A stretch of DNA of 64,000 nucleotides from Tetradesmus obliquus (taxonomy: Eukaryota > Chlorophyta > Chlorophyceae > Sphaeropleales > Scenedesmaceae): NCBI GenBank assembly GCA_030272155.1, contig CP126203.1, forward strand, positions 1,240,001-1,304,000, read 5' to 3'. The first letter of the stretch is position 1. The number at the start of each line of letters is the position of its first letter. A program made the position numbers and the translations under genes. The notes beneath the pieces are model-generated. The model made no database searches. It was given only the letters and a program-made list of their open reading frames with translations, and was not told the DNA's origin. This document shows positions 1 to 24,058 of the stretch, piece after piece.

Positions 1-432
1 CAACAGCAGCGCGCGCGCGGCACTACGCCGCTGTACATCTTCGACAACCCCAGTGTTCATGTCGGGCAGGATGCCGCAGAGCTCCTAGCTGCAGTTGGCA
101 TCAGCCCAGAGCAGGTGCTGCAAATTGCACCCTACTCCCCAGACTTCAACCAGCCCATTGAGCATGCATTCGGCAGCCTCAAGGCTAGCTTCCGCAACCA
201 TCTGTACAACACCTACCAGCTGACTGGTGCAGATGTATCACCGCGTGATCTGCAGCGGACGCTGCGTGACATATTCATGAACATCACACCTGCCTCTGTC
301 ATGGCTGATGCACTGAGGCTGCCAGATTTGTGGGATGTGGTGCGCAGCAGGCTGGACAGGGTGTTTGTATGCCGTGACAACAAGCAGCGCACGGGTACGG
401 CTGGCAACTGGCCTAGGGATGATCAGCGCTGA
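1..432 (+). CDS. DDE transposase, C-terminal part (unit 0)
   Basis: These are the last 143 codons of transposase exon 2; the gene begins before the window. The fragment holds the second catalytic Asp (the D of YIFDN) and the catalytic Glu (the E of PIEH) and ends at the TGA at 430-432. It is identical in translation to the complete copies. Confidence 0.9.
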   Translation, partial: QQQRARGTTPLYIFDNPSVHVGQDAAELLAAVGISPEQVLQIAPYSPDFNQPIEHAFGSLKASFRNHLYNTYQLTGADVSPRDLQRTLRDIFMNITPASVMADALRLPDLWDVVRSRLDRVFVCRDNKQRTGTAGNWPRDDQR

Positions 433-2523
433 GCACGCTGCTGCTGCTGCTGCTGCAGGGCTTAGAATGTATATGGCTGCTGGCTGCACTCTAGACAGCT
501 AGCAGCTGTCAGCAGGTCGTTGATTGACACTCCCTGCAAGCTCACCTTTCTGACAGCTCCTCTGCTGGTTGGGCTCCTGTGTGTGCGCACCGCACGGCGC
601 CGGCGATGTGCTGGTGCCATGCTGTAGCTGGGTGGTTATGTCTCTGTTTTCAACTGTATGCCAGCATGGACAGCCACAGGCATGATAAGTTGATAGATTG
701 TTATCTGATAATAATTGTCAGATGGTGTATTGGTGCATAGACTGGCCCAGAGTGAAAAGCGCGCGCGCGTGGCAAGGCAGTTCTGCCAGGGCAGCAGTGC
801 TGTTGATGGGCAGTTCACATGCAGGCGAGTTGAGCCAATGTGCGTGAATGATTGTACTTGTTACGGCTAAAATTAATTATTGTACGTGCTAACATGTGCT
901 TCATGCAGCTCCAGCTACTGAACCACACGTTACTTGTCTCAACGGTTGCCCTACCAAGCAGGATGCTTTGATGTTGCTGCACTCTTGGCATTGTAATAAC
1001 ATCTATTCAAGTATTTAATTGAGCTGACGCACGGCAGGAGAAAGCTGTGTTTGAGTCAGGTAATCCGTGACGGGGAAGTGCTGCCGAATCAGCCACTCTC
1101 GATGCAGACAGCTGTCACGCTGCAAACTTATCCTCATACATAACAGCTGATTCTTACATCTTACTGGGCCGAGAATTTTCTCCGGTGGGACGCCGGGCAG
1201 CCAGCCTGGTCACGGAGCCAGTGAGTCCAAGACACCTGTGCAGGCTATGCCAGCTCGATCGTGCTGCGGCAGCAACAGCAGACAATTCGGATTGCTTTTA
1301 AAACGTCTTTCAAGACAAGGCTGTGCTCTGAATGTGCTTTTGTGAATTTAGCAGCAGCACTGCATGACCACCAGGCTGCTGCTGCTGCTGTCTTGCCTGG
1401 CAAAGTGTGCATTCGAAAAACAGAGGCTACAGCAGGTGACAGCACCCTCCTCTGAGCTGCACTCTGCTGTCTGCTGCTGAATGTGCTGCTGGCCAGGCAG
1501 GTCCCAGCAATTGCAAACAACAGTAATGCAGGATTTGGGACAGCTGCACCACCAGCAGCAGTTGCAGCAGGCCTGCTATAACATAAAAAGGTGGGCAGGC
1601 ATTTCATCAACTTTGCCCAGAAACAGCAGCAGCAGGATTGCAATGCAGGCTGAGAACTGCTGCAGCAAAGGAAGATGTGCATTTTTGCCTTCAGTGGGGT
1701 AGGGTACGAACCTAGCATCCCAGATATGAGACAAAGCCACATAGCACACAAACAGAAAGCCATGCTGGCACAGCAACCTGCTGCTTGTGGTAGGTACAGC
1801 AAGGCACAGCTGCTGAACCTGCTGCCTTGGTTTGCTTGCATGTCAGCTGTCCTGCAGGCACCTCACCTGCTTGCAGCGCCCGCTCCAAACTGCTAGTTTT
1901 TTTCAGCTCCAGAATTCAGCGTGATCACACAAGATGAATGTCTGCAGGAGAGTGTGTGGACTGGCAGCACTCAACCAACTGTGCTCAACCACCCTAGCTG
2001 CACACGCGCAGCAGCTGCCTGTAATGCTGAAACGTTGATCGGTGATAAGCAACAAGATTAGCAGCAGCAGCACAGCGCACAACGTACAGGGCCAGACAGC
2101 AGACCGCAACAACAGCGGCAGGGCACTTGGCACACCACAGCTGCAGAGCCCGATCAGCCAGCAGGTGCTGCCCAGAAGTAGAAACGGTTACATAAATACA
2201 TATGTGCAGGCAGCAGCGCCCTATAGCAGCAGAAAGCAGCAGATAACAGACCCGCGAAAATTCAAAGAGTCGGGGCGCAGCAGGTGGTTTGCAAGCACTT
2301 TACTCAAGTTACACAGCACCCCATATAGTGGCTCAATTTGATTTAGATTCGTTGTTGAAAGTTGCATTTAATGAGTATGCTGCCTTTGCGCTACTTTCGT
2401 ACCAGTGCCTAGTGAAGGCTGGTCAAACTCCAGGTTGCTGCAAACATTAGGTTGACCTGACATGTTATTTCTGTTTGCACTGCTAGCAGAAGCACAGCTG
2501 ACTCCTGCATATGTTTTGAATCC
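433..2523. other. Non-coding tail and leader of the array unit
   Basis: Apart from nuclease exon 1 (546-620) I recognise no gene in this stretch. The same stretch recurs at 4740-6830, 9047-11137, 13354-15444, 17661-19751 and 21968-24058. It is less GC-rich than the genes and has short CTG/CAG clusters, an alternating GCGCGCGCGCG run near 764, a 17-bp imperfect palindrome at 705-721 and a TGTAA at 992-996 about 560 bp after the transposase stop. Open frames here (for example the - strand frame 1245-1841) have low-complexity, Cys/Ala/Ser-rich translations and no family resemblance. The region probably includes the nuclease promoter on the - strand and the transposase 3' end on the + strand; this is inferred from gene order only. 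Confidence 0.6.
546..620 (-). CDS. Nuclease-like gene, exon 1 only (unit 0)
   Basis: This is the 25-codon first exon of the antisense nuclease gene, read from ATG at 620 down to an AAG|GTGAGC donor after 546. Exon 2 lies outside the window to the left. See the complete copy at 3420-4927 for the model. Confidence 0.6.
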
Positions 2524-4739
2524 ATGGCTGCAGGGTGGCTGTCCATGGTGCGCAAGCACCCTTTGGGATGGGAGAGCAACCGCAAGTCAACGGGCGCGCG
2601 GGTGGCGGCGGTGGTGGCGGTGCTCACGATGCTAGCCATCGCCGGCAGTCCAAAGGGTGCGGCAGGCTATTACAGAGTACACTTTCCTAAGCATGCTGCT
2701 CAAATCAAACAGGACCTGAATTCCTTCTGCATGACCCACTACAAGAACTTCAAGCAGTATGGCACGGTGGCAACTCCCAAGCACAAGGGCAGACCCCCAA
2801 AAGTCCCAGATGACGTGGCATTAAAGGCCAGTGAAACATTCAAAGCTGGCAAGGTAGTCAAGGCCTACCCAAGTGCAGAAGCAAAGAAGAAAGTCGACGT
2901 GCATGTATGGTGGACATCAATCAAACTTGCTTGTCAGGAAAATGAGTACCTGGGTGGCCTATGCAGGAAGTACAACATCAGGCCCAAGCAACTGCTGAAG
3001 CGCATGAAAGCTGTTGACCCCAACCTGGTGCGCAGAAGAATAGATGTGAAGATGGACCTGACAGACAAGCAGAAAGACAGGAGAAAGGCTGCAGCAGAGA
3101 GGCTCTACAAGATGTTCCAGGATGAGCCAGACTTGCTGAGCAGAATTTATTTTGTTGATGAGTGCAAACTCTGGATGTCCAACCTAGCAGGCGGCGCCAT
3201 CAAGGTGTATTGCGATGCACATGATGCAAACGTACATGCTGTGCTACCATGCAAGTGGATGCGCAAGGGCCAGGACAACAAACCAGTCAAGCTACACTTT
3301 GTGTGCGCCGTCAACGCGGTGCACGGCGCTGTCTACTGCAAGTTCACCACCGGCACAACAGACAACATTGACCACGTTGGCAACCCCAACACACCATACT
3401 ATGTGAGTGTGTGCTGCTATTACTTAGATGCGCGCCATTGAAAGACATGCCAGCTGTTGCGTTCTGTGTACACACAACGTGGCAGTGCATCTCGCAGTGC
3501 CTCAGGGAAGGCGCGCTGCACACCGCGGCCTGCGCTGACCATAACAGCAGAGTAGCTTGGTGACAGCACAATGACACCACCCCCAGCAGCAAGCTGGAAA
3601 CCAGTCTCCAGGGAATCCTGCCAGTCACTTTCACATGTGCGCACCCGCAGCACACTGCCGCCTGCTGGCAGGAACTTGGCATACGCAGCAGCACAGAAGG
3701 CAACGTCGCGCTGCAACAGCTTCTCTGTGCTGTTGTCATACATACCAGTGTCATGGCATGTCCCATCTGCTTGAATCAGCACGCTGCGCTGCGCATGCAA
3801 GAAATCGACCCGGCCTCGCCACCACCCTACTGCCACTTGCGCGCACATGCTGTCACATATTCCCAACCTGTACAGCTTGCGCATCAGCTGCTCCTCACTT
3901 GCAGGCATGTTGCGTGCGCCTGTGCCACCCACTTTAGGCATCAAACATGCACACTGCTTGCACTCCAGAGCTGCTTCAGTTGCGGCAGCGCGCGGCTCGC
4001 AGAACTTGAAGTGCTGCACACCTGGCAGGCAGCCCGTCATGGCCCAGTACAGTGGCCGCTTGCGTATCCCCAAGCTGATGATCCTGGGCCTGCTTTTACC
4101 ATCTGCCTCAAGCCTGATGAATGGGCGTCCCTTTTCATCCACTTGCACATTTAGCTGCGCTGCTGCTAACAAGGCTTTCCGCTGCCAACCCGGCAAAACC
4201 TGCACCTGCAGTTGAAGAGGCAGAAGAAGAAGAAGAACGTGAAGGCCAAGAGCATGACACAGCTGGAGTTTGTCCACTGCATGAAGGAGCTTGCAGAGAA
4301 GGCTAACCAACAGCAGCGCGCGCGCGGCACTACGCCGCTGTACATCTTCGACAACCCCAGTGTTCATGTCGGGCAGGATGCCGCAGAGCTCCTAGCTGCA
4401 GTTGGCATCAGCCCAGAGCAGGTGCTGCAAATTGCACCCTACTCCCCAGACTTCAACCAGCCCATTGAGCATGCATTCGGCAGCCTCAAGGCTAGCTTCC
4501 GCAACCATCTGTACAACACCTACCAGCTGACTGGTGCAGATGTATCACCGCGTGATCTGCAGCGGACGCTGCGTGACATATTCATGAACATCACACCTGC
4601 CTCTGTCATGGCTGATGCACTGAGGCTGCCAGATTTGTGGGATGTGGTGCGCAGCAGGCTGGACAGGGTGTTTGTATGCCGTGACAACAAGCAGCGCACG
4701 GGTACGGCTGGCAACTGGCCTAGGGATGATCAGCGCTGA
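2524..4739 (+). CDS. Tc1/mariner/IS630-like DDE transposase (unit 1)
   Basis: A DDE-superfamily transposase that would cut and join the element's DNA in the nucleus. Exons are 2524-3402 and 4212-4739, joined in phase 0 (TAT|GTGAGT donor, CTGCAG|TTG acceptor), giving 468 aa. Reading through the intron hits a stop at 3439, and both exons are needed for the catalytic core, so splicing is required. Catalytic residues are D212 (FVDEC), D340 (IFDN) and E379 (PIEH). The spacing D340-E379 is 38 residues, with one extra Gln in the usual SPDFNPIEH motif. A basic GRPPK motif at 89-93 and helical segments to about 200 fit an N-terminal DNA-binding part. Residues 25-42 are oddly hydrophobic, so the true start could be further downstream. 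An in-frame TGA lies about 65 bp upstream of the ATG. The intron (809 bp) contains exon 2 of the antisense nuclease gene. Confidence 0.9.
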
Positions 4740-4927
4740 GCACGCTGCTGCTGCTGCTGCTGCAGGGCTTAGAATGTATATGGCTGCTGGCTGCACTCTA
4801 GACAGCTAGCAGCTGTCAGCAGGTCGTTGATTGACACTCCCTGCAAGCTCACCTTTCTGACAGCTCCTCTGCTGGTTGGGCTCCTGTGTGTGCGCACCGC
4901 ACGGCGCCGGCGATGTGCTGGTGCCAT
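3420..4927 (-). CDS. Putative PD-(D/E)XK nuclease, interlocked with the transposase (unit 1)
   Basis: A two-exon antisense gene. Exon 1 runs from 4927 to 4853 (25 codons, ATG in context CAGCATGG, in-frame TAA six codons upstream, very basic start MAPAHRRRRAVRTHR). Exon 2 runs from 4205 to 3420 and ends in tandem stops TAA TAG. They join in phase 0 (AAG|GTGAGC donor, CTGCAG|GTG acceptor) to give 286 aa. The exon 2 part contains RVDF, then QADGTCH ten residues on, then a Lys/Arg-containing helix and SVLRV. This order matches the core of DUF559/Vsr-like restriction-type nucleases (usually VDF...EVDG..H...RVLRV). The expected Glu is Gln here, so activity is uncertain. Upstream Cys residues (FCE...ECKQCAC) could bind zinc. 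The 647-bp intron contains all of transposase exon 2 in antisense. The basic N-terminus could be a nuclear signal. The fold is inferred from motif order only. Confidence 0.68.
4206..4211. promoter_or_regulatory. Shared bidirectional 3' splice site (CTGCAG)
   Basis: The hexamer fills exactly the gap between nuclease exon 2 and transposase exon 2. On the + strand it ends the transposase intron; on the - strand it ends the nuclease intron. The - strand pyrimidine tract (TTCTTCTTC...) is the reverse complement of the Lys codons of transposase residues 295-301. Equivalent sites are at 8513-8518, 12820-12825, 17127-17132, 21434-21439 and 25741-25746. Use on each strand is predicted, not shown. Confidence 0.65.
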
Positions 4928-6830
4928 GCTGTAGCTGGGTGGTTATGTCTCTGTTTTCAACTGTATGCCAGCATGGACAGCCACAGGCATGATAAGTTGA
5001 TAGATTGTTATCTGATAATAATTGTCAGATGGTGTATTGGTGCATAGACTGGCCCAGAGTGAAAAGCGCGCGCGCGTGGCAAGGCAGTTCTGCCAGGGCA
5101 GCAGTGCTGTTGATGGGCAGTTCACATGCAGGCGAGTTGAGCCAATGTGCGTGAATGATTGTACTTGTTACGGCTAAAATTAATTATTGTACGTGCTAAC
5201 ATGTGCTTCATGCAGCTCCAGCTACTGAACCACACGTTACTTGTCTCAACGGTTGCCCTACCAAGCAGGATGCTTTGATGTTGCTGCACTCTTGGCATTG
5301 TAATAACATCTATTCAAGTATTTAATTGAGCTGACGCACGGCAGGAGAAAGCTGTGTTTGAGTCAGGTAATCCGTGACGGGGAAGTGCTGCCGAATCAGC
5401 CACTCTCGATGCAGACAGCTGTCACGCTGCAAACTTATCCTCATACATAACAGCTGATTCTTACATCTTACTGGGCCGAGAATTTTCTCCGGTGGGACGC
5501 CGGGCAGCCAGCCTGGTCACGGAGCCAGTGAGTCCAAGACACCTGTGCAGGCTATGCCAGCTCGATCGTGCTGCGGCAGCAACAGCAGACAATTCGGATT
5601 GCTTTTAAAACGTCTTTCAAGACAAGGCTGTGCTCTGAATGTGCTTTTGTGAATTTAGCAGCAGCACTGCATGACCACCAGGCTGCTGCTGCTGCTGTCT
5701 TGCCTGGCAAAGTGTGCATTCGAAAAACAGAGGCTACAGCAGGTGACAGCACCCTCCTCTGAGCTGCACTCTGCTGTCTGCTGCTGAATGTGCTGCTGGC
5801 CAGGCAGGTCCCAGCAATTGCAAACAACAGTAATGCAGGATTTGGGACAGCTGCACCACCAGCAGCAGTTGCAGCAGGCCTGCTATAACATAAAAAGGTG
5901 GGCAGGCATTTCATCAACTTTGCCCAGAAACAGCAGCAGCAGGATTGCAATGCAGGCTGAGAACTGCTGCAGCAAAGGAAGATGTGCATTTTTGCCTTCA
6001 GTGGGGTAGGGTACGAACCTAGCATCCCAGATATGAGACAAAGCCACATAGCACACAAACAGAAAGCCATGCTGGCACAGCAACCTGCTGCTTGTGGTAG
6101 GTACAGCAAGGCACAGCTGCTGAACCTGCTGCCTTGGTTTGCTTGCATGTCAGCTGTCCTGCAGGCACCTCACCTGCTTGCAGCGCCCGCTCCAAACTGC
6201 TAGTTTTTTTCAGCTCCAGAATTCAGCGTGATCACACAAGATGAATGTCTGCAGGAGAGTGCGTGGACTGGCAGCACTCAACCAACTGTGCTCAACCACC
6301 CTAGCTGCACACGCGCAGCAGCTGCCTGTAATGCTGAAACGTTGATCGGTGATAAGCAACAAGATTAGCAGCAGCAGCACAGCGCACAACGTACAGGGCC
6401 AGACAGCAGACCGCAACAACAGCGGCAGGGCACTTGGCACACCACAGCTGCAGAGCCCGATCAGCCAGCAGGTGCTGCCCAGAAGTAGAAACGGTTACAT
6501 AAATACATATGTGCAGGCAGCAGCGCCCTATAGCAGCAGAAAGCAGCAGATAACAGACCCGCGAAAATTCAAAGAGTCGGGGCGCAGCAGGTGGTTTGCA
6601 AGCACTTTACTCAAGTTACACAGCACCCCATATAGTGGCTCAATTTGATTTAGATTCGTTGTTGAAAGTTGCATTTAATGAGTATGCTGCCTTTGCGCTA
6701 CTTTCGTACCAGTGCCTAGTGAAGGCTGGTCAAACTCCAGGTTGCTGCAAACATTAGGTTGACCTGACATGTTATTTCTGTTTGCACTGCTAGCAGAAGC
6801 ACAGCTGACTCCTGCATATGTTTTGAATCC

Positions 6831-9046
6831 ATGGCTGCAGGGTGGCTGTCCATGGTGCGCAAGCACCCTTTGGGATGGGAGAGCAACCGCAAGTCAACGG
6901 GCGCGCGGGTGGCGGCGGTGGTGGCGGTGCTCACGATGCTAGCCATCGCCGGCAGTCCAAAGGGTGCGGCAGGCTATTACAGAGTACACTTTCCTAAGCA
7001 TGCTGCTCAAATCAAACAGGACCTGAATTCCTTCTGCATGACCCACTACAAGAACTTCAAGCAGTATGGCACGGTGGCAACTCCCAAGCACAAGGGCAGA
7101 CCCCCAAAAGTCCCAGATGACGTGGCATTAAAGGCCAGTGAAACATTCAAAGCTGGCAAGGTAGTCAAGGCCTACCCAAGTGCAGAAGCAAAGAAGAAAG
7201 TCGACGTGCATGTATGGTGGACATCAATCAAACTTGCTTGTCAGGAAAATGAGTACCTGGGTGGCCTATGCAGGAAGTACAACATCAGGCCCAAGCAACT
7301 GCTGAAGCGCATGAAAGCTGTTGACCCCAACCTGGTGCGCAGAAGAATAGATGTGAAGATGGACCTGACAGACAAGCAGAAAGACAGGAGAAAGGCTGCA
7401 GCAGAGAGGCTCTACAAGATGTTCCAGGATGAGCCAGACTTGCTGAGCAGAATTTATTTTGTTGATGAGTGCAAACTCTGGATGTCCAACCTAGCAGGCG
7501 GCGCCATCAAGGTGTATTGCGATGCACATGATGCAAACGTACATGCTGTGCTACCATGCAAGTGGATGCGCAAGGGCCAGGACAACAAACCAGTCAAGCT
7601 ACACTTTGTGTGCGCCGTCAACGCGGTGCACGGCGCTGTCTACTGCAAGTTCACCACCGGCACAACAGACAACATTGACCACGTTGGCAACCCCAACACA
7701 CCATACTATGTGAGTGTGTGCTGCTATTACTTAGATGCGCGCCATTGAAAGACATGCCAGCTGTTGCGTTCTGTGTACACACAACGTGGCAGTGCATCTC
7801 GCAGTGCCTCAGGGAAGGCGCGCTGCACACCGCGGCCTGCGCTGACCATAACAGCAGAGTAGCTTGGTGACAGCACAATGACACCACCCCCAGCAGCAAG
7901 CTGGAAACCAGTCTCCAGGGAATCCTGCCAGTCACTTTCACATGTGCGCACCCGCAGCACACTGCCGCCTGCTGGCAGGAACTTGGCATACGCAGCAGCA
8001 CAGAAGGCAACGTCGCGCTGCAACAGCTTCTCTGTGCTGTTGTCATACATACCAGTGTCATGGCATGTCCCATCTGCTTGAATCAGCACGCTGCGCTGCG
8101 CATGCAAGAAATCGACCCGGCCTCGCCACCACCCTACTGCCACTTGCGCGCACATGCTGTCACATATTCCCAACCTGTACAGCTTGCGCATCAGCTGCTC
8201 CTCACTTGCAGGCATGTTGCGTGCGCCTGTGCCACCCACTTTAGGCATCAAACATGCACACTGCTTGCACTCCAGAGCTGCTTCAGTTGCGGCAGCGCGC
8301 GGCTCGCAGAACTTGAAGTGCTGCACACCTGGCAGGCAGCCCGTCATGGCCCAGTACAGTGGCCGCTTGCGTATCCCCAAGCTGATGATCCTGGGCCTGC
8401 TTTTACCATCTGCCTCAAGCCTGATGAATGGGCGTCCCTTTTCATCCACTTGCACATTTAGCTGCGCTGCTGCTAACAAGGCTTTCCGCTGCCAACCCGG
8501 CAAAACCTGCACCTGCAGTTGAAGAGGCAGAAGAAGAAGAAGAACGTGAAGGCCAAGAGCATGACACAGCTGGAGTTTGTCCACTGCATGAAGGAGCTTG
8601 CAGAGAAGGCTAACCAACAGCAGCGCGCGCGCGGCACTACGCCGCTGTACATCTTCGACAACCCCAGTGTTCATGTCGGGCAGGATGCCGCAGAGCTCCT
8701 AGCTGCAGTTGGCATCAGCCCAGAGCAGGTGCTGCAAATTGCACCCTACTCCCCAGACTTCAACCAGCCCATTGAGCATGCATTCGGCAGCCTCAAGGCT
8801 AGCTTCCGCAACCATCTGTACAACACCTACCAGCTGACTGGTGCAGATGTATCACCGCGTGATCTGCAGCGGACGCTGCGTGACATATTCATGAACATCA
8901 CACCTGCCTCTGTCATGGCTGATGCACTGAGGCTGCCAGATTTGTGGGATGTGGTGCGCAGCAGGCTGGACAGGGTGTTTGTATGCCGTGACAACAAGCA
9001 GCGCACGGGTACGGCTGGCAACTGGCCTAGGGATGATCAGCGCTGA
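6831..9046 (+). CDS. DDE transposase (unit 2)
   Basis: Exons 6831-7709 and 8519-9046, phase 0 junction. The translation (468 aa) is identical to that of the unit 1 copy, with the same DD38E residues and the same antisense gene in its intron. Confidence 0.9.
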
Positions 9047-9234
9047 GCACGCTGCTGCTGCTGCTGCTGCAGGGCTTAGAATGTATATGGCTGCTGGCTG
9101 CACTCTAGACAGCTAGCAGCTGTCAGCAGGTCGTTGATTGACACTCCCTGCAAGCTCACCTTTCTGACAGCTCCTCTGCTGGTTGGGCTCCTGTGTGTGC
9201 GCACCGCACGGCGCCGGCGATGTGCTGGTGCCAT
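7727..9234 (-). CDS. Putative PD-(D/E)XK nuclease (unit 2)
   Basis: Exon 1 9234-9160 and exon 2 8512-7727 on the - strand. Identical to the unit 1 copy as far as can be read. No stop or frameshift is present. Confidence 0.68.
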
Positions 9235-11137
9235 GCTGTAGCTGGGTGGTTATGTCTCTGTTTTCAACTGTATGCCAGCATGGACAGCCACAGGCATGAT
9301 AAGTTGATAGATTGTTATCTGATAATAATTGTCAGATGGTGTATTGGTGCATAGACTGGCCCAGAGTGAAAAGCGCGCGCGCGTGGCAAGGCAGTTCTGC
9401 CAGGGCAGCAGTGCTGTTGATGGGCAGTTCACATGCAGGCGAGTTGAGCCAATGTGCGTGAATGATTGTACTTGTTACGGCTAAAATTAATTATTGTACG
9501 TGCTAACATGTGCTTCATGCAGCTCCAGCTACTGAACCACACGTTACTTGTCTCAACGGTTGCCCTACCAAGCAGGATGCTTTGATGTTGCTGCACTCTT
9601 GGCATTGTAATAACATCTATTCAAGTATTTAATTGAGCTGACGCACGGCAGGAGAAAGCTGTGTTTGAGTCAGGTAATCCGTGACGGGGAAGTGCTGCCG
9701 AATCAGCCACTCTCGATGCAGACAGCTGTCACGCTGCAAACTTATCCTCATACATAACAGCTGATTCTTACATCTTACTGGGCCGAGAATTTTCTCCGGT
9801 GGGACGCCGGGCAGCCAGCCTGGTCACGGAGCCAGTGAGTCCAAGACACCTGTGCAGGCTATGCCAGCTCGATCGTGCTGCGGCAGCAACAGCAGACAAT
9901 TCGGATTGCTTTTAAAACGTCTTTCAAGACAAGGCTGTGCTCTGAATGTGCTTTTGTGAATTTAGCAGCAGCACTGCATGACCACCAGGCTGCTGCTGCT
10001 GCTGTCTTGCCTGGCAAAGTGTGCATTCGAAAAACAGAGGCTACAGCAGGTGACAGCACCCTCCTCTGAGCTGCACTCTGCTGTCTGCTGCTGAATGTGC
10101 TGCTGGCCAGGCAGGTCCCAGCAATTGCAAACAACAGTAATGCAGGATTTGGGACAGCTGCACCACCAGCAGCAGTTGCAGCAGGCCTGCTATAACATAA
10201 AAAGGTGGGCAGGCATTTCATCAACTTTGCCCAGAAACAGCAGCAGCAGGATTGCAATGCAGGCTGAGAACTGCTGCAGCAAAGGAAGATGTGCATTTTT
10301 GCCTTCAGTGGGGTAGGGTACGAACCTAGCATCCCAGATATGAGACAAAGCCACATAGCACACAAACAGAAAGCCATGCTGGCACAGCAACCTGCTGCTT
10401 GTGGTAGGTACAGCAAGGCACAGCTGCTGAACCTGCTGCCTTGGTTTGCTTGCATGTCAGCTGTCCTGCAGGCACCTCACCTGCTTGCAGCGCCCGCTCC
10501 AAACTGCTAGTTTTTTTCAGCTCCAGAATTCAGCGTGATCACACAAGATGAATGTCTGCAGGAGAGTGCGTGGACTGGCAGCACTCAACCAACTGTGCTC
10601 AACCACCCTAGCTGCACACGCGCAGCAGCTGCCTGTAATGCTGAAACGTTGATCGGTGATAAGCAACAAGATTAGCAGCAGCAGCACAGCGCACAACGTA
10701 CAGGGCCAGACAGCAGACCGCAACAACAGCGGCAGGGCACTTGGCACACCACAGCTGCAGAGCCCGATCAGCCAGCAGGTGCTGCCCAGAAGTAGAAACG
10801 GTTACATAAATACATATGTGCAGGCAGCAGCGCCCTATAGCAGCAGAAAGCAGCAGATAACAGACCCGCGAAAATTCAAAGAGTCGGGGCGCAGCAGGTG
10901 GTTTGCAAGCACTTTACTCAAGTTACACAGCACCCCATATAGTGGCTCAATTTGATTTAGATTCGTTGTTGAAAGTTGCATTTAATGAGTATGCTGCCTT
11001 TGCGCTACTTTCGTACCAGTGCCTAGTGAAGGCTGGTCAAACTCCAGGTTGCTGCAAACATTAGGTTGACCTGACATGTTATTTCTGTTTGCACTGCTAG
11101 CAGAAGCACAGCTGACTCCTGCATATGTTTTGAATCC

Positions 11138-13353
11138 ATGGCTGCAGGGTGGCTGTCCATGGTGCGCAAGCACCCTTTGGGATGGGAGAGCAACCGCAAG
11201 TCAACGGGCGCGCGGGTGGCGGCGGTGGTGGCGGTGCTCACGATGCTAGCCATCGCCGGCAGTCCAAAGGGTGCGGCAGGCTATTACAGAGTACACTTTC
11301 CTAAGCATGCTGCTCAAATCAAACAGGACCTGAATTCCTTCTGCATGACCCACTACAAGAACTTCAAGCAGTATGGCACGGTGGCAACTCCCAAGCACAA
11401 GGGCAGACCCCCAAAAGTCCCAGATGACGTGGCATTAAAGGCCAGTGAAACATTCAAAGCTGGCAAGGTAGTCAAGGCCTACCCAAGTGCAGAAGCAAAG
11501 AAGAAAGTCGACGTGCATGTATGGTGGACATCAATCAAACTTGCTTGTCAGGAAAATGAGTACCTGGGTGGCCTATGCAGGAAGTACAACATCAGGCCCA
11601 AGCAACTGCTGAAGCGCATGAAAGCTGTTGACCCCAACCTGGTGCGCAGAAGAATAGATGTGAAGATGGACCTGACAGACAAGCAGAAAGACAGGAGAAA
11701 GGCTGCAGCAGAGAGGCTCTACAAGATGTTCCAGGATGAGCCAGACTTGCTGAGCAGAATTTATTTTGTTGATGAGTGCAAACTCTGGATGTCCAACCTA
11801 GCAGGCGGCGCCATCAAGGTGTATTGCGATGCACATGATGCAAACGTACATGCTGTGCTACCATGCAAGTGGATGCGCAAGGGCCAGGACAACAAACCAG
11901 TCAAGCTACACTTTGTGTGCGCCGTCAACGCGGTGCACGGCGCTGTCTACTGCAAGTTCACCACCGGCACAACAGACAACATTGACCACGTTGGCAACCC
12001 CAACACACCATACTATGTGAGTGTGTGCTGCTATTACTTAGATGCGCGCCATTGAAAGACATGCCAGCTGTTGCGTTCTGTGTACACACAACGTGGCAGT
12101 GCATCTCGCAGTGCCTCAGGGAAGGCGCGCTGCACACCGCGGCCTGCGCTGACCATAACAGCAGAGTAGCTTGGTGACAGCACAATGACACCACCCCCAG
12201 CAGCAAGCTGGAAACCAGTCTCCAGGGAATCCTGCCAGTCACTTTCACATGTGCGCACCCGCAGCACACTGCCGCCTGCTGGCAGGAACTTGGCATACGC
12301 AGCAGCACAGAAGGCAACGTCGCGCTGCAACAGCTTCTCTGTGCTGTTGTCATACATACCAGTGTCATGGCATGTCCCATCTGCTTGAATCAGCACGCTG
12401 CGCTGCGCATGCAAGAAATCGACCCGGCCTCGCCACCACCCTACTGCCACTTGCGCGCACATGCTGTCACATATTCCCAACCTGTACAGCTTGCGCATCA
12501 GCTGCTCCTCACTTGCAGGCATGTTGCGTGCGCCTGTGCCACCCACTTTAGGCATCAAACATGCACACTGCTTGCACTCCAGAGCTGCTTCAGTTGCGGC
12601 AGCGCGCGGCTCGCAGAACTTGAAGTGCTGCACACCTGGCAGGCAGCCCGTCATGGCCCAGTACAGTGGCCGCTTGCGTATCCCCAAGCTGATGATCCTG
12701 GGCCTGCTTTTACCATCTGCCTCAAGCCTGATGAATGGGCGTCCCTTTTCATCCACTTGCACATTTAGCTGCGCTGCTGCTAACAAGGCTTTCCGCTGCC
12801 AACCCGGCAAAACCTGCACCTGCAGTTGAAGAGGCAGAAGAAGAAGAAGAACGTGAAGGCCAAGAGCATGACACAGCTGGAGTTTGTCCACTGCATGAAG
12901 GAGCTTGCAGAGAAGGCTAACCAACAGCAGCGCGCGCGCGGCACTACGCCGCTGTACATCTTCGACAACCCCAGTGTTCATGTCGGGCAGGATGCCGCAG
13001 AGCTCCTAGCTGCAGTTGGCATCAGCCCAGAGCAGGTGCTGCAAATTGCACCCTACTCCCCAGACTTCAACCAGCCCATTGAGCATGCATTCGGCAGCCT
13101 CAAGGCTAGCTTCCGCAACCATCTGTACAACACCTACCAGCTGACTGGTGCAGATGTATCACCGCGTGATCTGCAGCGGACGCTGCGTGACATATTCATG
13201 AACATCACACCTGCCTCTGTCATGGCTGATGCACTGAGGCTGCCAGATTTGTGGGATGTGGTGCGCAGCAGGCTGGACAGGGTGTTTGTATGCCGTGACA
13301 ACAAGCAGCGCACGGGTACGGCTGGCAACTGGCCTAGGGATGATCAGCGCTGA
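11138..13353 (+). CDS. DDE transposase (unit 3)
   Basis: Exons 11138-12016 and 12826-13353. Intact, 468 aa, same translation as unit 1. Confidence 0.9.
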
Positions 13354-13541
13354 GCACGCTGCTGCTGCTGCTGCTGCAGGGCTTAGAATGTATATGGCTG
13401 CTGGCTGCACTCTAGACAGCTAGCAGCTGTCAGCAGGTCGTTGATTGACACTCCCTGCAAGCTCACCTTTCTGACAGCTCCTCTGCTGGTTGGGCTCCTG
13501 TGTGTGCGCACCGCACGGCGCCGGCGATGTGCTGGTGCCAT
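12034..13541 (-). CDS. Putative PD-(D/E)XK nuclease (unit 3)
   Basis: Exon 1 13541-13467 and exon 2 12819-12034 on the - strand. Intact, 286 aa. Confidence 0.68.
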
Positions 13542-15444
13542 GCTGTAGCTGGGTGGTTATGTCTCTGTTTTCAACTGTATGCCAGCATGGACAGCCACAG
13601 GCATGATAAGTTGATAGATTGTTATCTGATAATAATTGTCAGATGGTGTATTGGTGCATAGACTGGCCCAGAGTGAAAAGCGCGCGCGCGTGGCAAGGCA
13701 GTTCTGCCAGGGCAGCAGTGCTGTTGATGGGCAGTTCACATGCAGGCGAGTTGAGCCAATGTGCGTGAATGATTGTACTTGTTACGGCTAAAATTAATTA
13801 TTGTACGTGCTAACATGTGCTTCATGCAGCTCCAGCTACTGAACCACACGTTACTTGTCTCAACGGTTGCCCTACCAAGCAGGATGCTTTGATGTTGCTG
13901 CACTCTTGGCATTGTAATAACATCTATTCAAGTATTTAATTGAGCTGACGCACGGCAGGAGAAAGCTGTGTTTGAGTCAGGTAATCCGTGACGGGGAAGT
14001 GCTGCCGAATCAGCCACTCTCGATGCAGACAGCTGTCACGCTGCAAACTTATCCTCATACATAACAGCTGATTCTTACATCTTACTGGGCCGAGAATTTT
14101 CTCCGGTGGGACGCCGGGCAGCCAGCCTGGTCACGGAGCCAGTGAGTCCAAGACACCTGTGCAGGCTATGCCAGCTCGATCGTGCTGCGGCAGCAACAGC
14201 AGACAATTCGGATTGCTTTTAAAACGTCTTTCAAGACAAGGCTGTGCTCTGAATGTGCTTTTGTGAATTTAGCAGCAGCACTGCATGACCACCAGGCTGC
14301 TGCTGCTGCTGTCTTGCCTGGCAAAGTGTGCATTCGAAAAACAGAGGCTACAGCAGGTGACAGCACCCTCCTCTGAGCTGCACTCTGCTGTCTGCTGCTG
14401 AATGTGCTGCTGGCCAGGCAGGTCCCAGCAATTGCAAACAACAGTAATGCAGGATTTGGGACAGCTGCACCACCAGCAGCAGTTGCAGCAGGCCTGCTAT
14501 AACATAAAAAGGTGGGCAGGCATTTCATCAACTTTGCCCAGAAACAGCAGCAGCAGGATTGCAATGCAGGCTGAGAACTGCTGCAGCAAAGGAAGATGTG
14601 CATTTTTGCCTTCAGTGGGGTAGGGTACGAACCTAGCATCCCAGATATGAGACAAAGCCACATAGCACACAAACAGAAAGCCATGCTGGCACAGCAACCT
14701 GCTGCTTGTGGTAGGTACAGCAAGGCACAGCTGCTGAACCTGCTGCCTTGGTTTGCTTGCATGTCAGCTGTCCTGCAGGCACCTCACCTGCTTGCAGCGC
14801 CCGCTCCAAACTGCTAGTTTTTTTCAGCTCCAGAATTCAGCGTGATCACACAAGATGAATGTCTGCAGGAGAGTGCGTGGACTGGCAGCACTCAACCAAC
14901 TGTGCTCAACCACCCTAGCTGCACACGCGCAGCAGCTGCCTGTAATGCTGAAACGTTGATCGGTGATAAGCAACAAGATTAGCAGCAGCAGCACAGCGCA
15001 CAACGTACAGGGCCAGACAGCAGACCGCAACAACAGCGGCAGGGCACTTGGCACACCACAGCTGCAGAGCCCGATCAGCCAGCAGGTGCTGCCCAGAAGT
15101 AGAAACGGTTACATAAATACATATGTGCAGGCAGCAGCGCCCTATAGCAGCAGAAAGCAGCAGATAACAGACCCGCGAAAATTCAAAGAGTCGGGGCGCA
15201 GCAGGTGGTTTGCAAGCACTTTACTCAAGTTACACAGCACCCCATATAGTGGCTCAATTTGATTTAGATTCGTTGTTGAAAGTTGCATTTAATGAGTATG
15301 CTGCCTTTGCGCTACTTTCGTACCAGTGCCTAGTGAAGGCTGGTCAAACTCCAGGTTGCTGCAAACATTAGGTTGACCTGACATGTTATTTCTGTTTGCA
15401 CTGCTAGCAGAAGCACAGCTGACTCCTGCATATGTTTTGAATCC

Positions 15445-17660
15445 ATGGCTGCAGGGTGGCTGTCCATGGTGCGCAAGCACCCTTTGGGATGGGAGAGCAA
15501 CCGCAAGTCAACGGGCGCGCGGGTGGCGGCGGTGGTGGCGGTGCTCACGATGCTAGCCATCGCCGGCAGTCCAAAGGGTGCGGCAGGCTATTACAGAGTA
15601 CACTTTCCTAAGCATGCTGCTCAAATCAAACAGGACCTGAATTCCTTCTGCATGACCCACTACAAGAACTTCAAGCAGTATGGCACGGTGGCAACTCCCA
15701 AGCACAAGGGCAGACCCCCAAAAGTCCCAGATGACGTGGCATTAAAGGCCAGTGAAACATTCAAAGCTGGCAAGGTAGTCAAGGCCTACCCAAGTGCAGA
15801 AGCAAAGAAGAAAGTCGACGTGCATGTATGGTGGACATCAATCAAACTTGCTTGTCAGGAAAATGAGTACCTGGGTGGCCTATGCAGGAAGTACAACATC
15901 AGGCCCAAGCAACTGCTGAAGCGCATGAAAGCTGTTGACCCCAACCTGGTGCGCAGAAGAATAGATGTGAAGATGGACCTGACAGACAAGCAGAAAGACA
16001 GGAGAAAGGCTGCAGCAGAGAGGCTCTACAAGATGTTCCAGGATGAGCCAGACTTGCTGAGCAGAATTTATTTTGTTGATGAGTGCAAACTCTGGATGTC
16101 CAACCTAGCAGGCGGCGCCATCAAGGTGTATTGCGATGCACATGATGCAAACGTACATGCTGTGCTACCATGCAAGTGGATGCGCAAGGGCCAGGACAAC
16201 AAACCAGTCAAGCTACACTTTGTGTGCGCCGTCAACGCGGTGCACGGCGCTGTCTACTGCAAGTTCACCACCGGCACAACAGACAACATTGACCACGTTG
16301 GCAACCCCAACACACCATACTATGTGAGTGTGTGCTGCTATTACTTAGATGCGCGCCATTGAAAGACATGCCAGCTGTTGCGTTCTGTGTACACACAACG
16401 TGGCAGTGCATCTCGCAGTGCCTCAGGGAAGGCGCGCTGCACACCGCGGCCTGCGCTGACCATAACAGCAGAGTAGCTTGGTGACAGCACAATGACACCA
16501 CCCCCAGCAGCAAGCTGGAAACCAGTCTCCAGGGAATCCTGCCAGTCACTTTCACATGTGCGCACCCGCAGCACACTGCCGCCTGCTGGCAGGAACTTGG
16601 CATACGCAGCAGCACAGAAGGCAACGTCGCGCTGCAACAGCTTCTCTGTGCTGTTGTCATACATACCAGTGTCATGGCATGTCCCATCTGCTTGAATCAG
16701 CACGCTGCGCTGCGCATGCAAGAAATCGACCCGGCCTCGCCACCACCCTACTGCCACTTGCGCGCACATGCTGTCACATATTCCCAACCTGTACAGCTTG
16801 CGCATCAGCTGCTCCTCACTTGCAGGCATGTTGCGTGCGCCTGTGCCACCCACTTTAGGCATCAAACATGCACACTGCTTGCACTCCAGAGCTGCTTCAG
16901 TTGCGGCAGCGCGCGGCTCGCAGAACTTGAAGTGCTGCACACCTGGCAGGCAGCCCGTCATGGCCCAGTACAGTGGCCGCTTGCGTATCCCCAAGCTGAT
17001 GATCCTGGGCCTGCTTTTACCATCTGCCTCAAGCCTGATGAATGGGCGTCCCTTTTCATCCACTTGCACATTTAGCTGCGCTGCTGCTAACAAGGCTTTC
17101 CGCTGCCAACCCGGCAAAACCTGCACCTGCAGTTGAAGAGGCAGAAGAAGAAGAAGAACGTGAAGGCCAAGAGCATGACACAGCTGGAGTTTGTCCACTG
17201 CATGAAGGAGCTTGCAGAGAAGGCTAACCAACAGCAGCGCGCGCGCGGCACTACGCCGCTGTACATCTTCGACAACCCCAGTGTTCATGTCGGGCAGGAT
17301 GCCGCAGAGCTCCTAGCTGCAGTTGGCATCAGCCCAGAGCAGGTGCTGCAAATTGCACCCTACTCCCCAGACTTCAACCAGCCCATTGAGCATGCATTCG
17401 GCAGCCTCAAGGCTAGCTTCCGCAACCATCTGTACAACACCTACCAGCTGACTGGTGCAGATGTATCACCGCGTGATCTGCAGCGGACGCTGCGTGACAT
17501 ATTCATGAACATCACACCTGCCTCTGTCATGGCTGATGCACTGAGGCTGCCAGATTTGTGGGATGTGGTGCGCAGCAGGCTGGACAGGGTGTTTGTATGC
17601 CGTGACAACAAGCAGCGCACGGGTACGGCTGGCAACTGGCCTAGGGATGATCAGCGCTGA
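15445..17660 (+). CDS. DDE transposase (unit 4)
   Basis: Exons 15445-16323 and 17133-17660. Intact, 468 aa, same translation as unit 1. Confidence 0.9.
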
Positions 17661-17848
17661 GCACGCTGCTGCTGCTGCTGCTGCAGGGCTTAGAATGTAT
17701 ATGGCTGCTGGCTGCACTCTAGACAGCTAGCAGCTGTCAGCAGGTCGTTGATTGACACTCCCTGCAAGCTCACCTTTCTGACAGCTCCTCTGCTGGTTGG
17801 GCTCCTGTGTGTGCGCACCGCACGGCGCCGGCGATGTGCTGGTGCCAT
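16341..17848 (-). CDS. Putative PD-(D/E)XK nuclease (unit 4)
   Basis: Exon 1 17848-17774 and exon 2 17126-16341 on the - strand. Intact, 286 aa. Confidence 0.68.
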
Positions 17849-19751
17849 GCTGTAGCTGGGTGGTTATGTCTCTGTTTTCAACTGTATGCCAGCATGGACA
17901 GCCACAGGCATGATAAGTTGATAGATTGTTATCTGATAATAATTGTCAGATGGTGTATTGGTGCATAGACTGGCCCAGAGTGAAAAGCGCGCGCGCGTGG
18001 CAAGGCAGTTCTGCCAGGGCAGCAGTGCTGTTGATGGGCAGTTCACATGCAGGCGAGTTGAGCCAATGTGCGTGAATGATTGTACTTGTTACGGCTAAAA
18101 TTAATTATTGTACGTGCTAACATGTGCTTCATGCAGCTCCAGCTACTGAACCACACGTTACTTGTCTCAACGGTTGCCCTACCAAGCAGGATGCTTTGAT
18201 GTTGCTGCACTCTTGGCATTGTAATAACATCTATTCAAGTATTTAATTGAGCTGACGCACGGCAGGAGAAAGCTGTGTTTGAGTCAGGTAATCCGTGACG
18301 GGGAAGTGCTGCCGAATCAGCCACTCTCGATGCAGACAGCTGTCACGCTGCAAACTTATCCTCATACATAACAGCTGATTCTTACATCTTACTGGGCCGA
18401 GAATTTTCTCCGGTGGGACGCCGGGCAGCCAGCCTGGTCACGGAGCCAGTGAGTCCAAGACACCTGTGCAGGCTATGCCAGCTCGATCGTGCTGCGGCAG
18501 CAACAGCAGACAATTCGGATTGCTTTTAAAACGTCTTTCAAGACAAGGCTGTGCTCTGAATGTGCTTTTGTGAATTTAGCAGCAGCACTGCATGACCACC
18601 AGGCTGCTGCTGCTGCTGTCTTGCCTGGCAAAGTGTGCATTCGAAAAACAGAGGCTACAGCAGGTGACAGCACCCTCCTCTGAGCTGCACTCTGCTGTCT
18701 GCTGCTGAATGTGCTGCTGGCCAGGCAGGTCCCAGCAATTGCAAACAACAGTAATGCAGGATTTGGGACAGCTGCACCACCAGCAGCAGTTGCAGCAGGC
18801 CTGCTATAACATAAAAAGGTGGGCAGGCATTTCATCAACTTTGCCCAGAAACAGCAGCAGCAGGATTGCAATGCAGGCTGAGAACTGCTGCAGCAAAGGA
18901 AGATGTGCATTTTTGCCTTCAGTGGGGTAGGGTACGAACCTAGCATCCCAGATATGAGACAAAGCCACATAGCACACAAACAGAAAGCCATGCTGGCACA
19001 GCAACCTGCTGCTTGTGGTAGGTACAGCAAGGCACAGCTGCTGAACCTGCTGCCTTGGTTTGCTTGCATGTCAGCTGTCCTGCAGGCACCTCACCTGCTT
19101 GCAGCGCCCGCTCCAAACTGCTAGTTTTTTTCAGCTCCAGAATTCAGCGTGATCACACAAGATGAATGTCTGCAGGAGAGTGCGTGGACTGGCAGCACTC
19201 AACCAACTGTGCTCAACCACCCTAGCTGCACACGCGCAGCAGCTGCCTGTAATGCTGAAACGTTGATCGGTGATAAGCAACAAGATTAGCAGCAGCAGCA
19301 CAGCGCACAACGTACAGGGCCAGACAGCAGACCGCAACAACAGCGGCAGGGCACTTGGCACACCACAGCTGCAGAGCCCGATCAGCCAGCAGGTGCTGCC
19401 CAGAAGTAGAAACGGTTACATAAATACATATGTGCAGGCAGCAGCGCCCTATAGCAGCAGAAAGCAGCAGATAACAGACCCGCGAAAATTCAAAGAGTCG
19501 GGGCGCAGCAGGTGGTTTGCAAGCACTTTACTCAAGTTACACAGCACCCCATATAGTGGCTCAATTTGATTTAGATTCGTTGTTGAAAGTTGCATTTAAT
19601 GAGTATGCTGCCTTTGCGCTACTTTCGTACCAGTGCCTAGTGAAGGCTGGTCAAACTCCAGGTTGCTGCAAACATTAGGTTGACCTGACATGTTATTTCT
19701 GTTTGCACTGCTAGCAGAAGCACAGCTGACTCCTGCATATGTTTTGAATCC

Positions 19752-21967
19752 ATGGCTGCAGGGTGGCTGTCCATGGTGCGCAAGCACCCTTTGGGATGGG
19801 AGAGCAACCGCAAGTCAACGGGCGCGCGGGTGGCGGCGGTGGTGGCGGTGCTCACGATGCTAGCCATCGCCGGCAGTCCAAAGGGTGCGGCAGGCTATTA
19901 CAGAGTACACTTTCCTAAGCATGCTGCTCAAATCAAACAGGACCTGAATTCCTTCTGCATGACCCACTACAAGAACTTCAAGCAGTATGGCACGGTGGCA
20001 ACTCCCAAGCACAAGGGCAGACCCCCAAAAGTCCCAGATGACGTGGCATTAAAGGCCAGTGAAACATTCAAAGCTGGCAAGGTAGTCAAGGCCTACCCAA
20101 GTGCAGAAGCAAAGAAGAAAGTCGACGTGCATGTATGGTGGACATCAATCAAACTTGCTTGTCAGGAAAATGAGTACCTGGGTGGCCTATGCAGGAAGTA
20201 CAACATCAGGCCCAAGCAACTGCTGAAGCGCATGAAAGCTGTTGACCCCAACCTGGTGCGCAGAAGAATAGATGTGAAGATGGACCTGACAGACAAGCAG
20301 AAAGACAGGAGAAAGGCTGCAGCAGAGAGGCTCTACAAGATGTTCCAGGATGAGCCAGACTTGCTGAGCAGAATTTATTTTGTTGATGAGTGCAAACTCT
20401 GGATGTCCAACCTAGCAGGCGGCGCCATCAAGGTGTATTGCGATGCACATGATGCAAACGTACATGCTGTGCTACCATGCAAGTGGATGCGCAAGGGCCA
20501 GGACAACAAACCAGTCAAGCTACACTTTGTGTGCGCCGTCAACGCGGTGCACGGCGCTGTCTACTGCAAGTTCACCACCGGCACAACAGACAACATTGAC
20601 CACGTTGGCAACCCCAACACACCATACTATGTGAGTGTGTGCTGCTATTACTTAGATGCGCGCCATTGAAAGACATGCCAGCTGTTGCGTTCTGTGTACA
20701 CACAACGTGGCAGTGCATCTCGCAGTGCCTCAGGGAAGGCGCGCTGCACACCGCGGCCTGCGCTGACCATAACAGCAGAGTAGCTTGGTGACAGCACAAT
20801 GACACCACCCCCAGCAGCAAGCTGGAAACCAGTCTCCAGGGAATCCTGCCAGTCACTTTCACATGTGCGCACCCGCAGCACACTGCCGCCTGCTGGCAGG
20901 AACTTGGCATACGCAGCAGCACAGAAGGCAACGTCGCGCTGCAACAGCTTCTCTGTGCTGTTGTCATACATACCAGTGTCATGGCATGTCCCATCTGCTT
21001 GAATCAGCACGCTGCGCTGCGCATGCAAGAAATCGACCCGGCCTCGCCACCACCCTACTGCCACTTGCGCGCACATGCTGTCACATATTCCCAACCTGTA
21101 CAGCTTGCGCATCAGCTGCTCCTCACTTGCAGGCATGTTGCGTGCGCCTGTGCCACCCACTTTAGGCATCAAACATGCACACTGCTTGCACTCCAGAGCT
21201 GCTTCAGTTGCGGCAGCGCGCGGCTCGCAGAACTTGAAGTGCTGCACACCTGGCAGGCAGCCCGTCATGGCCCAGTACAGTGGCCGCTTGCGTATCCCCA
21301 AGCTGATGATCCTGGGCCTGCTTTTACCATCTGCCTCAAGCCTGATGAATGGGCGTCCCTTTTCATCCACTTGCACATTTAGCTGCGCTGCTGCTAACAA
21401 GGCTTTCCGCTGCCAACCCGGCAAAACCTGCACCTGCAGTTGAAGAGGCAGAAGAAGAAGAAGAACGTGAAGGCCAAGAGCATGACACAGCTGGAGTTTG
21501 TCCACTGCATGAAGGAGCTTGCAGAGAAGGCTAACCAACAGCAGCGCGCGCGCGGCACTACGCCGCTGTACATCTTCGACAACCCCAGTGTTCATGTCGG
21601 GCAGGATGCCGCAGAGCTCCTAGCTGCAGTTGGCATCAGCCCAGAGCAGGTGCTGCAAATTGCACCCTACTCCCCAGACTTCAACCAGCCCATTGAGCAT
21701 GCATTCGGCAGCCTCAAGGCTAGCTTCCGCAACCATCTGTACAACACCTACCAGCTGACTGGTGCAGATGTATCACCGCGTGATCTGCAGCGGACGCTGC
21801 GTGACATATTCATGAACATCACACCTGCCTCTGTCATGGCTGATGCACTGAGGCTGCCAGATTTGTGGGATGTGGTGCGCAGCAGGCTGGACAGGGTGTT
21901 TGTATGCCGTGACAACAAGCAGCGCACGGGTACGGCTGGCAACTGGCCTAGGGATGATCAGCGCTGA
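19752..21967 (+). CDS. DDE transposase (unit 5)
   Basis: Exons 19752-20630 and 21440-21967. Intact, 468 aa, same translation as unit 1. Confidence 0.9.
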
Positions 21968-22155
21968 GCACGCTGCTGCTGCTGCTGCTGCAGGGCTTAG
22001 AATGTATATGGCTGCTGGCTGCACTCTAGACAGCTAGCAGCTGTCAGCAGGTCGTTGATTGACACTCCCTGCAAGCTCACCTTTCTGACAGCTCCTCTGC
22101 TGGTTGGGCTCCTGTGTGTGCGCACCGCACGGCGCCGGCGATGTGCTGGTGCCAT
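20648..22155 (-). CDS. Putative PD-(D/E)XK nuclease (unit 5)
   Basis: Exon 1 22155-22081 and exon 2 21433-20648 on the - strand. Intact, 286 aa. Confidence 0.68.
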
Positions 22156-24058
22156 GCTGTAGCTGGGTGGTTATGTCTCTGTTTTCAACTGTATGCCAGC
22201 ATGGACAGCCACAGGCATGATAAGTTGATAGATTGTTATCTGATAATAATTGTCAGATGGTGTATTGGTGCATAGACTGGCCCAGAGTGAAAAGCGCGCG
22301 CGCGTGGCAAGGCAGTTCTGCCAGGGCAGCAGTGCTGTTGATGGGCAGTTCACATGCAGGCGAGTTGAGCCAATGTGCGTGAATGATTGTACTTGTTACG
22401 GCTAAAATTAATTATTGTACGTGCTAACATGTGCTTCATGCAGCTCCAGCTACTGAACCACACGTTACTTGTCTCAACGGTTGCCCTACCAAGCAGGATG
22501 CTTTGATGTTGCTGCACTCTTGGCATTGTAATAACATCTATTCAAGTATTTAATTGAGCTGACGCACGGCAGGAGAAAGCTGTGTTTGAGTCAGGTAATC
22601 CGTGACGGGGAAGTGCTGCCGAATCAGCCACTCTCGATGCAGACAGCTGTCACGCTGCAAACTTATCCTCATACATAACAGCTGATTCTTACATCTTACT
22701 GGGCCGAGAATTTTCTCCGGTGGGACGCCGGGCAGCCAGCCTGGTCACGGAGCCAGTGAGTCCAAGACACCTGTGCAGGCTATGCCAGCTCGATCGTGCT
22801 GCGGCAGCAACAGCAGACAATTCGGATTGCTTTTAAAACGTCTTTCAAGACAAGGCTGTGCTCTGAATGTGCTTTTGTGAATTTAGCAGCAGCACTGCAT
22901 GACCACCAGGCTGCTGCTGCTGCTGTCTTGCCTGGCAAAGTGTGCATTCGAAAAACAGAGGCTACAGCAGGTGACAGCACCCTCCTCTGAGCTGCACTCT
23001 GCTGTCTGCTGCTGAATGTGCTGCTGGCCAGGCAGGTCCCAGCAATTGCAAACAACAGTAATGCAGGATTTGGGACAGCTGCACCACCAGCAGCAGTTGC
23101 AGCAGGCCTGCTATAACATAAAAAGGTGGGCAGGCATTTCATCAACTTTGCCCAGAAACAGCAGCAGCAGGATTGCAATGCAGGCTGAGAACTGCTGCAG
23201 CAAAGGAAGATGTGCATTTTTGCCTTCAGTGGGGTAGGGTACGAACCTAGCATCCCAGATATGAGACAAAGCCACATAGCACACAAACAGAAAGCCATGC
23301 TGGCACAGCAACCTGCTGCTTGTGGTAGGTACAGCAAGGCACAGCTGCTGAACCTGCTGCCTTGGTTTGCTTGCATGTCAGCTGTCCTGCAGGCACCTCA
23401 CCTGCTTGCAGCGCCCGCTCCAAACTGCTAGTTTTTTTCAGCTCCAGAATTCAGCGTGATCACACAAGATGAATGTCTGCAGGAGAGTGCGTGGACTGGC
23501 AGCACTCAACCAACTGTGCTCAACCACCCTAGCTGCACACGCGCAGCAGCTGCCTGTAATGCTGAAACGTTGATCGGTGATAAGCAACAAGATTAGCAGC
23601 AGCAGCACAGCGCACAACGTACAGGGCCAGACAGCAGACCGCAACAACAGCGGCAGGGCACTTGGCACACCACAGCTGCAGAGCCCGATCAGCCAGCAGG
23701 TGCTGCCCAGAAGTAGAAACGGTTACATAAATACATATGTGCAGGCAGCAGCGCCCTATAGCAGCAGAAAGCAGCAGATAACAGACCCGCGAAAATTCAA
23801 AGAGTCGGGGCGCAGCAGGTGGTTTGCAAGCACTTTACTCAAGTTACACAGCACCCCATATAGTGGCTCAATTTGATTTAGATTCGTTGTTGAAAGTTGC
23901 ATTTAATGAGTATGCTGCCTTTGCGCTACTTTCGTACCAGTGCCTAGTGAAGGCTGGTCAAACTCCAGGTTGCTGCAAACATTAGGTTGACCTGACATGT
24001 TATTTCTGTTTGCACTGCTAGCAGAAGCACAGCTGACTCCTGCATATGTTTTGAATCC

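Follow-up and report, generated by a model that had tools for sequence, protein, structure and literature searches.

The closest described counterparts of the element analysed here are the KolobokP elements, composite-like DNA transposons reported from animals (Kojima and Bao 2022, PMC9587614), for which an endonuclease encoded on the complementary strand has been proposed to induce unequal crossing-over (PMC9587614). According to the accessible text of that paper, KolobokP and the present element, a core E between direct repeats S, both have direct terminal repeats with inverted ends of their own (an LTDR-INT-LTDR arrangement), and both occur with solo repeats, shared-repeat multimers flanked by target duplications, and repeat-less core-core junctions (PMC9587614). 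Both also combine a DDE transposase with a nuclease on the complementary strand, the nuclease here being a predicted one (PMC9587614). The same text also reveals differences. The transposase is of the Kolobok type in KolobokP and of the DDE_3 type here; the nuclease is a His-Me finger enzyme encoded downstream of the transposase in KolobokP, whereas here it is weakly DUF559-like and lies inside the transposase intron; repeats measure about 450 or 660 bp there and 723 bp here; target duplications are 3-5 bp there and 3 bp here; and core-core junctions have lost 3-4 bp in KolobokP but carry 3-4 added bases here (PMC9587614). Interlocked genes are not described for KolobokP in the accessible text of PMC9587614. 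Because its two enzymes are not those that define KolobokP, the present element appears to work like KolobokP without being one, and the combination of a DDE_3-type transposase with a weakly DUF559-like nuclease makes an origin independent of KolobokP likely.

Another DDE transposon with an accessory nuclease is ISL2EU. KolobokE likewise carries an accessory nuclease, in that case a lambda-exonuclease-like PD-(D/E)XK enzyme (named in PMC9587614). Both pair a DDE transposase with a nuclease, as the present element does; the transposase families differ, and interlocking is not described for either in the source text available. With the IS630-Tc1-mariner group (Tc1/mariner, pogo, Zator, Sailor) the element probably has the DDE_3 domain in common (PMC7386202, PMC8533490), as well as a D-E spacing of 38 and footprints of the C(A/T)G type (PMC7386202, PMC8533490, PMC8151067); CAG is the footprint of Sleeping Beauty (PMC8151067). 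Unlike that group, as the available portions of these sources present it, the element has long direct repeats and a second gene on the other strand. A search of the open-licence literature by title and start of abstract returned no account of this element, no DDE_3 composite and no interlocked genes within a transposon.

The window, by which we mean the whole 64-kb stretch of DNA that was analysed, corresponds to C13:1240001-1304000; the genome searched comprises 104.66 Mb in 17 contigs. At its left the window contains the end of a tandem array that spans approximately C13:1051470-1268256, with the following features.

1..28256, + strand: right-hand part of the C13 tandem array, period 4307 bp, head-to-tail, one mismatch between successive units
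2415..5998, + strand: core E, 3584 bp, the first complete core in the window
5999..6721, + strand: S direct repeat, 723 bp, with its own inverted ends; also at 1692-2414 and then every 4307 bp to 28256
28257..28259, no strand: right copy of the target duplication TAA, the left copy of which is 217 kb away, in locus L049

The element, S-E-S, is the core E between direct 723-bp S repeats, within the 4307-bp tandem unit. Its boundaries were set from array ends, single copies and junctions that lack S. A total of 136 nuclease matches were scored among 379 candidates in the genome. Sixty are identical (51 on C13 and 9 on C10), more matches at 97% identity are found on C4 and C14, with one that contains a stop on C6, and a single match at 90% (L046) is also on C6. 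A second family in the same genome, family 2, is present on several contigs; its nuclease is 59-60% identical to that of the window's family and its transposase about 68% (67-69% in exon 1). Homologous S and E occur in the same arrangement in both families, and S and E have thus diverged together. Over 25 bp the inverted ends of S match almost perfectly in family 2; those of the window's family are imperfect. The ends of E next to S (2415-2419 and 5994-5998) are also inverted repeats, GCCTT/AAGGC and GTCT/AGAC in the two families, so that S-less E-E junctions are near-palindromic. A 16-bp inverted pair (2535-2550 and 4969-4984) was rejected as the element end, since the ends are fixed by insertion boundaries. 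A 205-aa antisense ORF (5552-6169) was likewise rejected as a third conserved gene; it overlaps S, and its alignment looked non-coding by eye. Near the right end of E, a TATA-like sequence (CATAAAAAGG, window 5889-5898) is kept in both families. It stands upstream of a transposase gene only in arrays, at a distance of roughly 0.2 kb if S is absent, and might be a junction promoter. One family-2 S (L045, C16:221001-231000, at about 2914-3336) is interrupted by approximately 420 bp of unrelated sequence. Elsewhere in the window there is a tandem repeat with a period of 31 bp (55543-56660), and neither Rfam matches nor tRNA genes were found within the 64 kb.

The initial annotation had read this DNA as part of a mobile element. 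That reading is partly supported, and it is extended here by the S-E-S arrangement, solo S copies, footprints and a bidirectional splice acceptor, none of which it had included. Every one of the 15 insertions read on both sides, four of them solo S copies and the other 11 elements or arrays, has matching 3-bp target duplications. These are TAA (the C13 array, 217 kb apart), ATG, ACA, AAA and TAC for the window's family and its 97% relative; AAA, TGT, CCG, GCT, AAT and GTA for family 2; and AAA, TCT, ACC and GCA for the solo S copies. Because the duplications match at both ends of an array, each array either grew from one insertion or inserted as a multimer. The varied duplications at 15 of 15 sites differ from the TA duplication of Tc1/mariner; some pogo/Fot elements have TAA. 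Zator has a 3-bp target duplication. A 21-base pattern from the S end occurs at 94 places in the genome, most of them in arrays; judged by position, about nine look like solo S copies, four of which were read.

Some units are about 720 bp shorter, with S missing and E adjoining E. Ten such S-less junctions, of which four belong to family 2 and six to the window's family and which may not all be separate events, have CTG (8), CAG (1) or CATG (1) between the two E ends. In the genome-wide nuclease match set, the start of E was located in 29 of 30 loci, and among the scored copies the short spacing accounts for 6/46 on C13, 21/37 on C4, 9/23 on C12, 0/8 on C10 and 1/11 for family 2 on C14. With S-less junctions this common in some arrays, as on C4, nothing seems to restore S reliably; for the same reason, targeting of the S-less junction by the nuclease was judged unlikely. 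The converse of these E-E junctions is seen in the C4 array (L053, C4:221201-225500), where one S directly follows another in the same orientation and neither E nor any spacer separates them. On C13, a single S-E-S has been flipped where it stands: on either side its S joins the adjacent E end to the base. A transposase that works on the ends of S would be expected to leave such traces as missing S, footprints and in-place inversion. Another inverted segment of the array lies at C13:1221000-1238000 (L066, L067), with a breakpoint inside E and transposase exon 1 truncated.

Two genes on opposite strands are predicted within E, each with a single intron, as follows.

2524..3402, + strand: transposase exon 1, 293 codons, frame open, donor GTGAGT
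3403..4211, + strand: transposase intron, GT...AG, phase 0, with antisense nuclease exon 2 inside
3420..4205, - strand: nuclease exon 2, 261 codons and stop
4206..4211, both strands: CTGCAG palindrome, predicted 3' splice site of both genes
4206..4852, - strand: nuclease intron, GT...AG, phase 0, with opposite-strand transposase exon 2 inside
4212..4739, + strand: transposase exon 2, 175 codons and stop, carrying D340 and E379 (spliced-protein numbering)
4853..4927, - strand: nuclease exon 1, 25 codons including the ATG, 75 nt

The initial annotation had described four exons alternating in strand and separated by gaps of 17, 6 and 113 bp. We re-derived the same coordinates, strands and frames, and again found GT/AG at all splice sites, phase-0 joins and frames open to their stops. 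The mutual nesting that it had reported also stands: nuclease exon 2 is wholly within the transposase intron, and transposase exon 2 is wholly within the nuclease intron. The 6-bp gap is the palindrome CTGCAG, the predicted acceptor on each strand. With splice sites marked by slashes, the transposase donor is TACTAT/GTGAGT and its acceptor CACCTGCAG/TTGAAG, while the nuclease donor on the - strand is GTCAGAAAG/GTGAGC and its acceptor TTCAACTGCAG/GTGCAG. The - strand acceptor is preceded by a pyrimidine-rich tract, which on the + strand encodes the Lys-rich beginning of transposase exon 2; the family-2 tract is altered, has lost 9 bp and by eye is still pyrimidine-rich. The coding exons of the two genes have zero overlap; once spliced, the two mRNAs would thus lack complementarity in their coding portions. 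Before splicing, the transcripts would share at least 3420-4739, and the UTRs may overlap.

Family 2 shows the same order of transposase exon 1, antisense nuclease exon 2 and transposase exon 2. Common to both families are the transposase donor, the nuclease ATG and donor, and the CTGCAG acceptor on both strands, and nuclease exon 1 is 75 nt ungapped in each. The two expectations attached to the initial annotation, that related elements would keep the exon order and would maintain the antisense frame, thus hold within this genome, the frame being open in all three lineages examined. In the DNA of the loci examined, all 61 of 61 transposase exon pairs enclose an antisense nuclease exon; most of these pairs are near-identical, so they represent about three independent lineages (the window's family, L046 and family 2). 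In the region of exon 2, the nuclease frame is the sole stop-free frame of six in each of these three lineages. A genome-wide search with a 28-base pattern around the common acceptor found 269 places at up to two mismatches and 0 with a backwards control; as the pattern was drawn from both families, the 269 counts copies and not conservation. Between families, pN/pS is 0.207/0.444 for transposase exon 1 (z ~6.3), 0.191/0.405 for transposase exon 2 (z ~4.4), 0.243/0.402 for nuclease exon 2 (z ~4.0) and 0.292/0.397 for nuclease exon 1 (z 0.81, not significant, its 25 codons being too short), where the z values depend on an assumed share of synonymous sites. Differences between the families in nuclease exon 1 are evenly spread over codon positions. 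Omega is about 0.51 for the nuclease versus 0.36-0.38 for the transposase, the nuclease being the less constrained. These values point to purifying selection on both genes, nuclease exon 1 alone not reaching significance. The sequence architecture and its conservation between families within this one genome are established; from the splice sites and frames we infer that both genes are transcribed and that splicing follows the exons listed.

The decayed copy L046 (C6:5539001-5542700) has lost the beginning of transposase exon 1, and the reading frame of exon 2 is interrupted. The nuclease frame of this copy is open, with 90% identity to that of the window's family, and L046 keeps the nuclease ATG, the 75-nt exon 1 and the donor, as GGCTCACCT. 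Synonymous divergence from the window's family is 0.09 in nuclease exon 2, 0.15 in transposase exon 2, 0.39 in nuclease exon 1 and 0.52 in transposase exon 1, which suggests, in this one case, a conversion-like tract centred on the nuclease, as homing would predict. Two family-2 copies show a synonymous change of 0 in the nuclease, whereas their transposase exons reach 0.037 and 0.076; between the window's family and the 97% relative there is no such contrast (0.016, 0.016 and 0.017).

The transposase matches the Pfam family DDE_3 marginally, with 28.9 bits in the window's family (cut-off 28.6) and 22.7 bits in family 2, and in 3 of 3 members there was only one further Pfam match, at chance level. 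The spacing of D340 and E379 is 38, within the Tc1/mariner range of 34-41; D212, in exon 1, would on our reading of the sequence be a catalytic residue. By eye, the C/DxxH signature of Kolobok is absent between D340 and E379. A genome-wide search with the DDE_3 profile found five other places (C17:1097277, C17:1106553, C6:5907559, C6:1613270 and C15:771093) and none of the element's copies; at two of these five (L051 and L052) there was no match to nuclease exon 2 at E up to 1. For the second protein the only Pfam match is DUF559, in 7 of 7 members and below the cut-off, with E values ranging from 0.057 to 0.23 and bit scores of 13.7 and 11.8 against a curated cut-off of 20.6. The genome-wide search with DUF559 gave no match at E up to 1, the element's own copies included. 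None of the 7 nuclease members matched a His-Me finger nuclease in Pfam. PHROGs returned unrelated matches of like strength (E values of 0.048 and 0.066), NCBIfam gave no match, PDB gave chance-level matches only, and a single-sequence AlphaFold model had a pLDDT of 38 and was unusable. Two motifs, GR(V/I)DF and LIQADGxCHD, are kept in 7 of 7 members; the invariant residues cluster there, within the stretch that matches DUF559. The DUF559/Vsr-like core motif is of the kind VDF ... ExDGxxH, and LIQADGxCHD has Q where that motif usually has E. The second protein, which we take to be a Vsr/DUF559-like nuclease of the PD-(D/E)XK type, is a probable endonuclease that would cut DNA. Searches of viral and prokaryotic contig collections with short peptide patterns found no relatives outside this genome. 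The initial annotation's inference of a two-gene element expressed from opposite transcripts gains strength from family 2, in which exon order, splice sites and frames persist, and is weakened by the nuclease being a probable one only.

We consider it rather probable that the locus is an autonomous composite-like S-E-S transposon with interlocked genes, whose nuclease probably drives array growth. The two strands of core E would code for different proteins, one for a DDE_3-type transposase and the opposite one for a probable endonuclease of the PD-(D/E)XK type, with the single intron of each gene holding an exon of the other and the CTGCAG palindrome acting as acceptor for both. The transposase would act on the inverted ends of S; in doing so it would transfer the complete S-E-S, cut out S by itself with CTG, CAG or CATG left behind, and flip S-E-S where it lies. 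Arrays would grow from single insertions via recombination between S repeats, and, in line with the proposal made for KolobokP, the nuclease would most likely promote this growth through cuts within the element. By this analogy we infer that nuclease cuts, as opposed to ordinary unequal crossing-over, may drive the growth of the arrays.

The nuclease could instead have a single exon and lie antisense within the transposase intron, with its ATG in the complement of transposase exon 2, and the two genes would then be nested but not mutually interlocked. The unspliced nuclease frame is indeed open upstream of the acceptor, to 4391, and contains a single Met in the 97% relative and in the window's family (54 codons upstream in the latter) and two in L046. 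However, all five family-2 copies lack an in-frame ATG in this antisense extension before its stop, so that nuclease exon 1 looks necessary and splicing from exon 1 is favoured. As the ATG, length and donor of exon 1 are also kept in both families, we regard a one-exon nuclease as unlikely. Nuclease exon 1 is the weak part of the interlocked reading, its case being made by the kept ATG, length and donor together with the alternative ATG missing from family 2. A further reading takes the antisense frame as a functionless by-product, leaving a one-gene transposon whose arrays are ordinary satellite-like expansions. The higher omega of the nuclease and its sub-threshold family assignment would suit such a reading, which nevertheless seems very unlikely to us given that the nuclease frame alone is stop-free in three lineages with pN below pS, that the invariant residues cluster in GR(V/I)DF and LIQADGxCHD, and that the frame is open in L046 even though the transposase there is truncated and broken.

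The composite might also be opportunistic, E being a separate element or cargo that S, an independent small transposon, flanks by chance. Solo S copies do have their own inverted ends and 3-bp duplications, and S alone goes missing in arrays with transposon-like footprints. The homologous S and E of the two families are nonetheless arranged in the same way, and the E ends on either side of an S within an array are inverted, not duplicated; chance flanking is therefore quite unlikely in our estimation, and S is more probably the evolved end of the element.

More tentatively, paired-end transposons that carry an amplification nuclease may have originated a second time, independently, in this element, with both genes tied by one bidirectional splice acceptor. 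Since one acceptor serves both genes, we propose that their transcripts compete and that neither gene is easily lost without harming the other. If so, the interlocking would couple cut-and-paste mobility to array amplification, and an architecture reported, in the accessible text of PMC9587614, from one animal lineage would have evolved again with unrelated enzymes. Such re-evolution would suggest that direct repeats together with a nuclease are a stable strategy. The palindromic acceptor would also offer a clean model of opposite-strand genes whose spliced coding exons do not overlap, though 3420-4739 would be transcribed both ways, and the origin of long, homogeneous tandem arrays would become testable in a chromosome-scale eukaryotic assembly.
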